Notes under the pieces: model-generated
What the model saw: only the letters and a program-made list of their open reading frames with translations
Databases searched by the model: none
What the model was told of the DNA's origin: nothing
In this document: positions 36,386 through 62,189 of the stretch, piece after piece
How the letters are laid out: each line of letters starts with the position of its first letter
How positions within the stretch are numbered: the first letter of the stretch is position 1
NCBI GenBank assembly: GCA_013285645.1
Contig: JABDHJ010000002.1
Span: 62,001-126,000, forward strand
Source of the DNA: Verrucomicrobiota bacterium
Lineage (GTDB): Bacteria; Verrucomicrobiota; Verrucomicrobiia; Methylacidiphilales; UBA1321
Length of the DNA stretch: 64,000 nucleotides
Reading direction: 5' to 3'
Made by a program: the position numbers and the translations under genes

Positions 36386-38851
<2,466 letters not shown>

Positions 38852-38853
38852 CA

Positions 38854-38918
38854 GGTAGCCGCCGCAGGCTCGGCGGCGGTTCCCCTATGAGGTAGCCGTC
38901 GCACTCCGTGCGACGGTC
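38854..38918. repeat. Two GTAGCCG-type palindromic repeats (family C)
   Basis: The first unit begins GGTAGCCGCCGCAGGCTCGG (38854 on); the second begins GAGGTAGCCGTCGCACTCCG (38889 on). Each folds on itself (GCCGCCG/CGGCGGT; CCGTCGCA/TGCGACGG). The same 'GTAGCCG' core recurs at 41804, 41942, 42849, 62118 and 62158. Confidence 0.75.
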
Positions 38919-38964
38919 AGCCTTTGTGTCGTCGGATCAAGTTTTATCTGCCAAGCTGTCCTTT

Positions 38965-39351
38965 ATGACAAAGGAGGAGTTCCTGTCTCGTCAGAAGACA
39001 GCCGAACTATGGATCAAAAATAGAAACCATTTCATACCGTGGTTGTCTTTCATGGTCACAATTTCCATGTTTTCGGTCATTCCCTTGTTGGTGGGATTTC
39101 TGTGCTGGACGATCGTTAAAGGCGAACCTGCGTATGGGCTCCTTTGGGAGATTTCCTTCTGCTTGTTTGTCGCAGGCATCACGCATTGTGAACGGCGGTA
39201 TAGCTATAAAAGAACAGTGACGTTCCTCAAGAATCTGGGATTGAGATGTCCTCTTTGTGACAGATCTCCGATTTTTGATAAGGGAAAGATTACAGCAGAA
39301 ACGGGCAAGTGCTGGCACTGTGGAAAGCGATTTTTTGACGTTGATACCTAG
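38965..39351 (+). CDS. Small membrane protein with a zinc-ribbon end
   Basis: A protein of 128 residues from ATG 38965, with AGGAGG just after rather than before the start. Two hydrophobic segments (about residues 24-50 and 58-78) are followed by a C-terminal ribbon: 'LRCPLCDRS' and 'GKCWHCGKRFF', two C-x2-C pairs that should bind zinc. No family name comes to mind. It stands alone between glgP and rnd. Confidence 0.65.
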   Translation: MTKEEFLSRQKTAELWIKNRNHFIPWLSFMVTISMFSVIPLLVGFLCWTIVKGEPAYGLLWEISFCLFVAGITHCERRYSYKRTVTFLKNLGLRCPLCDRSPIFDKGKITAETGKCWHCGKRFFDVDT

Positions 39352-40700: not shown

Positions 40701-40918
40701 GGGATGGGCTGGCTTCCAAAAGCTTAAAACACTTAGACCTCTTATTTTTTTAAGAGGACTAGGGTCGCTAAGGTCTCTAAGGCTACCGCCCCGCCACTTT
40801 TTCATGCCATTCTGGCGATATGAAAGGTGCAACCTGTCCGATTCCTGACGAGAAAATCCAATTGCTCGAATTTAACGGGAACAAGAGTGGCACCTCAACC
40901 GTCTCACGATATACTTCC

Positions 40919-43225
40919 ATGATGATCAGGGTTCTTCTCTTTTTTCTGGTCACCGCGAGCCTCGCGGCCCGCGCGTCCGACCCCATTTCCACGCCTTACA
41001 GCGGTGCCAGCGCTACCGTCACTCAGCCGCATGTCACGGCAGAGCTGATTCCCGAGACGAGATCGGTGGAGGCGGGCAAACCTTTCGATGTCATTCTCCA
41101 TCTTCATTCCGATCCCGGTTGGCATACTTATTGGATTAATCCCGGCGATGCGGGGCTGGCGACGACGATTAAGTGGACGCTGCCGGAAGGTTTTACCGCC
41201 GGACCGATCCAATGGCCGACGCCGGAAAAGCACAAGATGGGGCCGCTCGTCACCTACGGGTATGAGGGGGACGTTTATCTGATTACGACGATTAAGGGCC
41301 CTGAGACCCTTGACGGCAAATTGCCCCCACATATCGAGATCAAGGCTCGCGCGAGTTGGCTCGTCTGCCAGGAGGAATGCATCCCCGGCAAAGGCGATTT
41401 TTCCCTCAGCTTTGACACGGGCTCACTGAACCTCCGCCTCCCGATCGATAACAAGGATTTTTTTGATGCCGCCCGCGCACGATTGCCGGCGACGGATGAT
41501 CGGTGGATAGTTAAGGGTGTCTCTGGAAAAGACGGCATCACCTTGCAATTTGTCGATACCGCGAGTTCCTCTCTTCCTGTAAAAGCCCCTCTCTATTTTT
41601 TCCCTGAGCAGCAAAATGTATTAAGCGCTACGGAAGACGTTAGTAAACTAGACCTGCAACATCCTCCCGGTGGCTTTAGTTGGCCGCTTGCATTTCAACA
41701 GAACGGCGAAAAAGCGGACAACCTAAGTGGTGTCCTTGTCTCGGACTCTCCGCTTCTGTTAGGTGGCGCTAAAGCCATCTACCTCGCGCAATTTTCAGTG
41801 ACTTCCGAGGTAGCCGCCGCTGTCCCTAGCGGCGGATCGGCGCCCCCCTCGGGTAGTCCGACAACGACAGGCGCACCCGCAGCGTCCGGATCGCCGCAGG
41901 CGACAGGAGGTAGTCAACCAATAACCGATACTGCAACTGCACCGTCGCTAGGGACAGCGACGGCTACCTCGGAGATTGCAACTCCGGTTCAACCTCTTTT
42001 GTTGGCGGTGTTGGGGGCGGCATTCGTTGGAGGGCTGATTTTGAATTTGATGCCTTGTGTGCTGCCGGTGCTTTCGTTGAAAGTTTTTTCTCTGATCAAG
42101 CATGCCGAGCACGCTCATAGCCAGGCATGGAGACAGGGCGTTGCTTTTACGGTGGGCGTGGTGATTTCGTTTTGGATTCTGGCGGGACTATTGCTGACTT
42201 TGCGCGCGGCAGGAAATCAACTTGGGTGGGGATTCCAGATGCAGTCGCCGGGATTTGTCCTGACGTTGATCTTTATTTTCTTTCTGCTCAGCCTGAATCT
42301 TTTCGGCGTTTTTGAACTGGGAACGTCCTTGGTGGGACTCGATGCGAAGGTGACCGGGCGCCACAACCACGGGCTATTTACATCCTTCCTCAACGGGGCG
42401 CTGGCCACTTTGGCGGCGACGCCTTGCACGGCGCCGTTCATGGGATCGGCGTTGGGATTTGCCGCGCAGCAACCCGCGGTTGTCTCGCTCCTGATTTTTA
42501 CTTTCCTGGCGTTCGGAATGGCAACGCCTTATCTGCTTCTGACAATTTTTCCCGGCGCGTTGAAATTTGTGCCGAAGCCGGGGGCATGGATGGAGGCGTT
42601 CAAGCAGTTCATGGGTTTTCTGCTGATGGCGACGGTGATTTTTCTCATCTATGTTTTTGGCGCTTTAACTGGAGAGGGGCAAATTCCAGGACTGCTGGGT
42701 ACGCTTTTATTTTTCGCTCTGATCGCATGGATATATGGTCGCTGGGGACAGCATGGTTGGATTCGCGTTTTGATTTTTGTTATCGCGGGTATTTATGTTT
42801 TTGCCATGTGGGACGTCATTGCGATGTCAGTTTTAAATGAAGGGGGGACCGTCGCCCGGCGGTCGACGGCTACCACGGAAGATGGCTATCAGCCCTGGTC
42901 GCAGGATGCGGTGCAGAAGGCGCTGGTGGACGGGAGGCCGGTCTTTGTCGATTTTACGGCGGCGTGGTGTCTGAGTTGCAAGGTGAATGAGCGCGTGGCG
43001 TTGGATACCGATGCGGTGCGCAAGGCTTTTGCGGACAAGAAGGTGGTGCTCTTTAAAGCGGATTGGACGCATGCTGATCCGGAGATTTCGAAGGCGTTGC
43101 AGCAATATAATCGGGATGGGGTGCCGCTTTACTTGCTCTATTCGCCGAAGGACCCGACCAAGCCCCAAGTTTTGCCGGAGGTACTTACACCGGGAATTGT
43201 GCTGGAGGCGTTGGGAAAAATTTAG
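40919..43225 (+). CDS. dsbD: DsbD-like thiol:disulfide interchange protein
   Basis: A protein of 768 residues. The start is ATG 40919 (or 40922), which begins a signal peptide ('MMIRVLLFFLVTASLAARAS'). Residues ~25-290 are a periplasmic DsbD-N/'DsbC'-type domain with 'ASWLVCQEECIPGKGDF'. About 360-645 is the eight-helix CcdA-type domain with 'LNLMPCVLPVLSLKVFSL' and 'ATPCTAPFMGSALGFA'. From ~665 a thioredoxin domain follows with 'AAWCLSCKVNE' (C-x2-C). It passes electrons from cytoplasmic thioredoxin to periplasmic proteins. Both interdomain linkers (296-352 and 644-654) are encoded by copies of a genomic palindromic repeat, which is unusual. A secreted redoxin gene follows. Confidence 0.92.
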   Translation: MMIRVLLFFLVTASLAARASDPISTPYSGASATVTQPHVTAELIPETRSVEAGKPFDVILHLHSDPGWHTYWINPGDAGLATTIKWTLPEGFTAGPIQWPTPEKHKMGPLVTYGYEGDVYLITTIKGPETLDGKLPPHIEIKARASWLVCQEECIPGKGDFSLSFDTGSLNLRLPIDNKDFFDAARARLPATDDRWIVKGVSGKDGITLQFVDTASSSLPVKAPLYFFPEQQNVLSATEDVSKLDLQHPPGGFSWPLAFQQNGEKADNLSGVLVSDSPLLLGGAKAIYLAQFSVTSEVAAAVPSGGSAPPSGSPTTTGAPAASGSPQATGGSQPITDTATAPSLGTATATSEIATPVQPLLLAVLGAAFVGGLILNLMPCVLPVLSLKVFSLIKHAEHAHSQAWRQGVAFTVGVVISFWILAGLLLTLRAAGNQLGWGFQMQSPGFVLTLIFIFFLLSLNLFGVFELGTSLVGLDAKVTGRHNHGLFTSFLNGALATLAATPCTAPFMGSALGFAAQQPAVVSLLIFTFLAFGMATPYLLLTIFPGALKFVPKPGAWMEAFKQFMGFLLMATVIFLIYVFGALTGEGQIPGLLGTLLFFALIAWIYGRWGQHGWIRVLIFVIAGIYVFAMWDVIAMSVLNEGGTVARRSTATTEDGYQPWSQDAVQKALVDGRPVFVDFTAAWCLSCKVNERVALDTDAVRKAFADKKVVLFKADWTHADPEISKALQQYNRDGVPLYLLYSPKDPTKPQVLPEVLTPGIVLEALGKI
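41804..41973. repeat. Inverted pair of family-C palindromes inside dsbD
   Basis: TCCGAGGTAGCCGCCGCTGT... (41804-41836) and its inverse ...GACGGCTACCTCGGA (41942-41973) face each other across about 105 bp. Read in frame they encode a linker rich in Ala, Ser, Pro, Thr and Gly between the periplasmic and membrane domains. The repeat core, CCGCTGTCCCTAGCGG, is shared with the intergenic copy at 62158-62189. Confidence 0.85.
42849..42879. repeat. Family-C palindrome inside dsbD, second site
   Basis: CCGTCGCCCGGCGGTCGACG followed by GCTACCACGGA matches the intergenic copy at 62118-62147 with a single difference in the compared part. It encodes about ten residues ('TVARRSTATTE') between the last membrane helix and the thioredoxin domain. 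Confidence 0.85.

Positions 43226-60848: not shown

Positions 60849-62189
<1,341 letters not shown>

Follow-up and report, generated by a model that had tools for sequence, protein, structure and literature searches.

REPs have been described inside open reading frames (ORFs) of many species (Di Nocera et al. 2013, PMC3733652), and among these species the verrucomicrobium Opitutus terrae has the largest number of GTAG cases. These intragenic REPs are single or paired, the pairs encode 20-30 residues, and the host genes are varied, with DNA repair genes and tRNA synthetases among them. The same study reports flanking ORFs that use GTAG as their stop, and finds that two Xanthomonas species carry different REPs at nearly the same position in recB. 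Its authors propose that flexible linkers tolerate REP insertions, and they equate the intragenic CGTC repeats of R. conorii with the Rickettsia palindromic elements RPE-4 and RPE-6. In-frame insertion of REPs into genes, including those of O. terrae, is thus already known.

Here we analyze a 64,000-nucleotide stretch (the window) from the genome of an uncultured verrucomicrobium (3.18 Mb in 100 contigs). Its nearest relatives with a name are metagenome-assembled genomes of Candidatus Methylacidiphilales / Verrucomicrobia. A gene in this window encodes a DsbD-like protein with three GTAG palindromes in frame, and one of its linkers carries REPs in seven of the eight species of the genus that were compared.

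Three REPs lie in frame in a dsbD-like gene

The gene was identified by Pfam matches to DsbD_N (residues 83-195), DsbD_TM (396-610) and Thioredoxin_7 (thioredoxin domain, 693-776), and by alignment with 27 homologues. Six cysteines that represent all three domains (C183, C187, C413, C536, C717 and C720) are invariant across the 28 proteins, and the gene therefore looks intact. Congeners share the N-terminus MMIR..., which here begins at position 40919, ahead of a signal-peptide-like stretch. Based on this N-terminal comparison, the true start is probably the ATG at 40919 (MMIRVLLFF...) and not the first ATG at 40820. The features of the window are as follows.

40820..43225, + strand: dsbD-like gene
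41804..41836, + strand: REP 1, core 41809-41835 GGTAGCCGCCGCTGTCCCTAGCGGCGG, type A, sense, encodes EVAAAVPSGG
41942..41973, - strand: REP 2, core 41942-41968 GGTAGCCGTCGCTGTCCCTAGCGACGG, type A variant, antisense, encodes PSLGTATATS
42849..42879, - strand: REP 3, core 42849-42874 GGTAGCCGTCGACCGCCGGGCGACGG, type B, antisense, encodes TVARRSTATT
38854..38918, + strand: two tandem intergenic REPs (38854-38879 and 38891-38916), directly 3' of an ORF ending at 38851
62117..62189, - strand: two tandem REPs, a type A core at 62158-62184 and a type B at about 62117-62142, intergenic according to the gene prediction used

Two of the dsbD REPs are placed before transmembrane (TM) helix 1, in what we call linker 1, and the third precedes the thioredoxin domain. 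In an AlphaFold2 model the last beta strand of the N-terminal domain ends at residue 329 and TM helix 1 starts at residue 392. REP 1 and REP 2 lie within or bordering the low-confidence coil between them (332-391), and REP 3 lies within a second coil (676-689) that leads from the last TM helix to the thioredoxin domain. An earlier note on this DNA had proposed that a dispersed genomic palindrome became coding at both domain boundaries of DsbD. The three in-frame copies that it described are present, and the Pfam limits, the AlphaFold2 coils and the genome-wide matches all support its proposal. The copies that it placed between genes (38854-38918 and 62118-62189) are also genuine, and each is a tandem REP pair. 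A mechanically listed ORF of 147 aa at 38908-39351 has its GTG start inside a REP hairpin, and the ATG at 38965 is the likelier start.

The palindromes belong to a GTAG REP family with RAYT genes

In the REP consensus, a GGTAG head precedes a hairpin (CCGYCG...CGRCGG), and the core measures about 27 nt. A search with the strict pattern GGTAGCCGYCGN{7,12}CGRCGG gives 183 matches in the genome and none with the pattern reversed, and in 773 kb searched, hairpins with the GGTAG head number 40, compared with 0-1 for five altered heads. Thus, the palindrome copies in dsbD are not due to chance. The bare heptamer GTAGCCG is uninformative as a search probe (750 matches versus 1501 for its reversal). 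Stem positions covary, with C-G pairs exchanged for T-A, A-T or G-C and T-A pairs for A-T. Each of seven congeners has 17-101 strict matches; four genomes that represent two other genera of the family have none, and the remaining genomes of the order have 0-2. Metagenome-assembled genomes of this verrucomicrobial genus (L088 and L091) have been deposited as 'Bacteroidetes bacterium' and 'Betaproteobacteria bacterium', and are apparently misnamed. Type A is the largest REP group in this genome (G000; 60 copies) and a minority in the congeners G006 (7), G007 (3) and G004 (1), in which it is outnumbered by other types.

With a terminal GTAG, a short imperfect palindrome (20-40 bp), dispersal in high copy number and a mostly extragenic location, these elements are GTAG REPs (PMC3733652). 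They are also REPINs (PMC3116915), as inverted pairs able to form a hairpin occur at the family level. Neighboring REPs less than 200 bp apart have heads outward in 25 cases, are in tandem in 26 and have heads inward in none. The pair formed by REP 1 and REP 2 has a spacer of 106 nt, compared with 11-41 nt in other outward pairs.

The genome encodes three proteins that score above the NCBIfam cut-off for the REP-associated tyrosine transposase (RAYT; NF047646). One RAYT gene (in L013) is closely flanked by two opposed REPs, the first immediately upstream of the gene and the second at the 3' end. We rejected the two strongest Y1 transposase matches (L009 and L010, MAQSLAKILVHTVFSTKDRQP...) as RAYTs. 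They are IS200-like and similar to each other, and no REP of the GTAG family occurs within about 1.5 kb of either gene. The earlier note had likened the palindromes to the Rickettsia elements; in-frame spread into linkers is indeed seen, but the elements themselves are GTAG REPs in a genome with RAYT genes.

REPs avoid genes, with in-frame exceptions

A census with a slightly relaxed pattern, taken in stretches over 1.15 Mb of this genome, includes 107 REPs, 90 of them intergenic, 14 wholly intragenic and 3 overlapping a gene end; genes were called by a simple codon-usage script, and single intragenic calls may be wrong, although those host genes that can be recognized are clear. Only 17 of the 107 touch coding sequence, which makes up 79% of the DNA (binomial P ~4e-44). 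In 0.37 Mb of the congener G006 there are 47 REPs, 4 wholly intragenic and 1 at a gene end. Individual calls to be treated with caution are a C-terminal intragenic REP in L246, which may be false, and the predicted REP-containing genes at L266 9609-10667 and L248 9388-10281, which are doubtful, may be intergenic and were not used as named hosts. Beyond the window, at C3:36551-36576 of this genome, a predicted membrane-protein gene takes its stop codon from the TAG in a REP head, and at L247 ~16197 a REP head overlaps the end of a second predicted gene.

A search of coding frames, as the earlier note had suggested, over these 1.15 Mb identified in-frame REPs in polX, metH, mutL (two), an ABC exporter, a family 4 glycosyltransferase and a GlcF-like iron-sulfur protein, besides the three in dsbD. 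In G006 the recognizable hosts are valS (a REP pair) and leuS. At least eight genes other than dsbD carry in-frame REPs in these two genomes, and DsbD is not the special target that it had been taken for. The mutL pair (residues ~359-395) lies between DNA_mis_repair (210-326) and MutL_C (453-595), and the insert in the ABC exporter lies between the membrane region, which ends at 288, and the ATPase, which starts at 357. The metH gene has been struck at two sites, the REP pair of the congener G003 being at a different position from the REP of this genome. The G003 pair (L176 2493-2568) fills the linker between S-methyl_trans and Pterin_bind, which reads RDVAPRKLPPPPLTSQYAG in this species and RDVPPRKVAADRRAVDSAGAAEGTTARRSAATQYAG in G003. 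The MetH REP of this species and the REPs of PolX, ValS and LeuS occupy loops within or next to a domain and not textbook domain boundaries.

In five or six congeners, the polX, metH and ABC exporter orthologues have no REP, and the REP-bearing proteins are longer than these orthologues, by up to 19 aa in PolX, 14 aa in MetH and about 5 aa net in the exporter. These REPs are therefore lineage-specific in-frame insertions. A loop of ValS holds a type A pair in G006 (L269) and a type B pair in G001 (L272). It has no REP in G003, G004, G005 and G007, being short in the last three and occupied by a longer non-REP loop in G003. This single tolerant loop was thus struck by different REPs in two species.

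The reading frames used within genes are restricted. One sense frame is closed by a stop in the GTAG head and, in type A, another is closed by a stop in the core, which leaves type A a single open sense frame. All 12 sense-oriented intragenic REPs use the frame VAAAVPSGG or its equivalents in other types, even though a second sense frame is also open in the non-A types. Antisense copies mostly use an Ala/Thr-rich frame (APPLGTAAATS, TVARRSTATT, TAARRAAATT). Although the numbers are small, this pattern fits the loss of insertions that brought stops or unsuitable peptides.

REPs occupy DsbD linker 1 across the genus

Seven of eight species of the genus carry a REP just before TM helix 1, in the same place, strand and frame; no recognizable linker-1 REP occurs in the eighth, G001. 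The element is type A in G000, G007, G006, G002 and G004, type B in G005 and type C in G003, and in the REP-bearing species it ends in GCT ACC (Ala-Thr). The subtype found in the DsbD of G003 is the dominant REP subtype of that genome. Stems are decaying in the linker-1 REPs of G002 and G004. In G007, a further REP head, ACGGCTACCACGG, immediately follows the type A REP, where the REPs of G003 and G005 sit. This arrangement suggests, as far as the sequences go, that type A landed in or beside an older REP.

The linker-1 site differs from all other sites that could be compared. Of 15 testable REP clusters of this genome, 14 have no REP at the corresponding site in congeners, linker 1 being the sole exception, and none of nine testable clusters of G006 is matched by a REP in this genome. 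Within dsbD, REP 1 has no counterpart in the aligned congeners and is private to this species among the eight, and G005 has its own upstream linker-1 REP, of a different type. REP 3 likewise has no equivalent insert in the aligned congeners. The 170-bp insertion that the earlier note had named at 41804-41973 does have REPs at both ends but is a composite of two ages, the 3' REP being old and shared and the 5' REP private. For the same reason, and because its 106-nt spacer far exceeds that of the other outward pairs, we rejected this segment as a single replicative REPIN unit.

Origin of the linker REPs

The REPs are miniature GTAG elements, presumably moved by the RAYT (IS200-like Y1) transposases that this genome encodes, whose match to these REPs is judged by proximity. 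They insert at many genomic sites. Within genes, insertions would be lost unless they kept the frame and fell in a flexible linker or loop, and surviving in-frame REPs would hence be found mostly near domain boundaries, presumably tolerated and not useful. Linker 1 probably gained its REP before the genus radiated, or soon after the radiation began, and has held one in nearly every species since, with the REP type replaced or renewed in some lineages. REP 1 and REP 3 would be later arrivals in the lineage of this species. We consider RAYT-type insertion, followed by loss of all but tolerated in-frame linker insertions such as the old linker-1 REP, to be the best explanation (probability about 0.87).

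The similarity between linkers and palindrome does not come from codon bias. The encoded peptides are low in complexity and linker-like, and Ala/Pro/Gly/Thr-rich linkers in a GC-rich genome might in principle mimic the palindrome, but we reject convergence as virtually impossible given exact matches of 26-27 nt to the genome-wide palindrome, including the GTAG head and the stem, and the complete lack of matches to the reversed pattern. The orthologues with empty sites also argue against it. The earlier note had named as refutation homologues that lack repeats yet keep the linker sequence. This refutation fails, as the congeners with REPs have the linker segment and the sister genus, with a shorter DsbD linker, lacks both segment and REP. 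A more serious alternative is that linker 1 is a tolerant hot spot where REPs arrived independently in several lineages, as they did in the valS loop with its different pairs in two species. The three subtypes at linker 1, the match between the G003 subtype and the REPs dominant in that genome, and the second head that abuts the type A REP of G007 as if one element had landed in or beside another are in line with such repeated arrivals. The type A carriers are also not a clade in the eight-species tree, which is weakly resolved. However, the type A REPs of G000, G006 and G007 share the same codon register and an equal codon distance to the TM helix, a better fit to one old insertion. One old insertion is also favored by the minority status of type A in G006, G007 and G004, which makes fresh insertion from the present REP pool less likely there. 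We regard independent arrivals as possible but somewhat doubtful.

If there was one old insertion, its synonymous sites appear too well kept for plain decay. Over the approximately 10 codons that can be compared in the linker-1 REP, fourfold-degenerate sites are identical in 8/8 cases between G000 and G007, 8/8 between G000 and G006 and 10/10 between G007 and G006, versus fractions of 0.53, 0.35 and 0.36, respectively, in the rest of dsbD. Hairpin constraint, gene conversion with other REPs or repeated insertion at a tolerant hot spot would explain this. The REP could have been kept for a role of the nucleic-acid hairpin, for example slowing translation before TM helix 1, or homogenized with genomic REPs by gene conversion. 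REP 2 carries a compensatory C-G to T-A pair: relative to the common type, two substitutions, both of which change an amino acid, re-establish the base pairing, but this compensated variant is also present elsewhere in the genome and may have been copied in. The linker-1 region of this species folds strongly (z = -7.45), although its strength depends on the private REP 1. The rarity of type A in G004, G006 and G007, which makes recent copying less likely there, and the 14 other testable sites without a congener REP are also consistent with maintenance of one form or another. On the other hand, the decaying stems in G002 and G004 and the absence of the REP in G001 speak against the hairpin being strictly required. 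It is unlikely, in our view, that a hairpin role or gene conversion accounts for the linker-1 REP. That the hairpin, as DNA or mRNA, has been retained and renewed because it is useful, for instance by pausing translation after the periplasmic domain and before TM helix 1, is more improbable still; one stretch would in that case be a protein linker and a nucleic-acid element simultaneously. We thus favor insertion followed by loss of all but tolerated copies for the REPs of dsbD.

Comparison with known systems

The empty sites in relatives document a selfish DNA element that supplies new protein linker sequence, and at one site, linker 1, what becomes of such insertions can be traced through eight species. 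Should the conservation of synonymous sites hold with more genomes, the coding REP would directly exemplify a mobile hairpin used inside a gene.

Like the Rickettsia palindromic elements, the REPs described here are palindromic and have entered many protein-coding genes in frame. They differ from those elements, as these have been described, in the GTAG head, the RAYT genes and the host phylum. Inverted REP pairs, RAYT genes with adjacent REPs and high copy number are shared with the REPIN/RAYT systems (PMC3116915; NF047646); extragenic copies were analyzed there, whereas here a minority is coding. The closest counterparts are the intragenic GTAG REPs of PMC3733652, which are also GTAG palindromes in ORFs, single or paired, encode short peptides and are found in repair genes and tRNA synthetases. 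In contrast to that study, the present case involves a new genus and REP set, with empty sites in congeners and a linker 1 that is occupied in seven of eight species by three subtypes, with conserved synonymous sites. This genus-wide occupation of one DsbD linker by REPs exceeds anything that we found described in the open-access literature.
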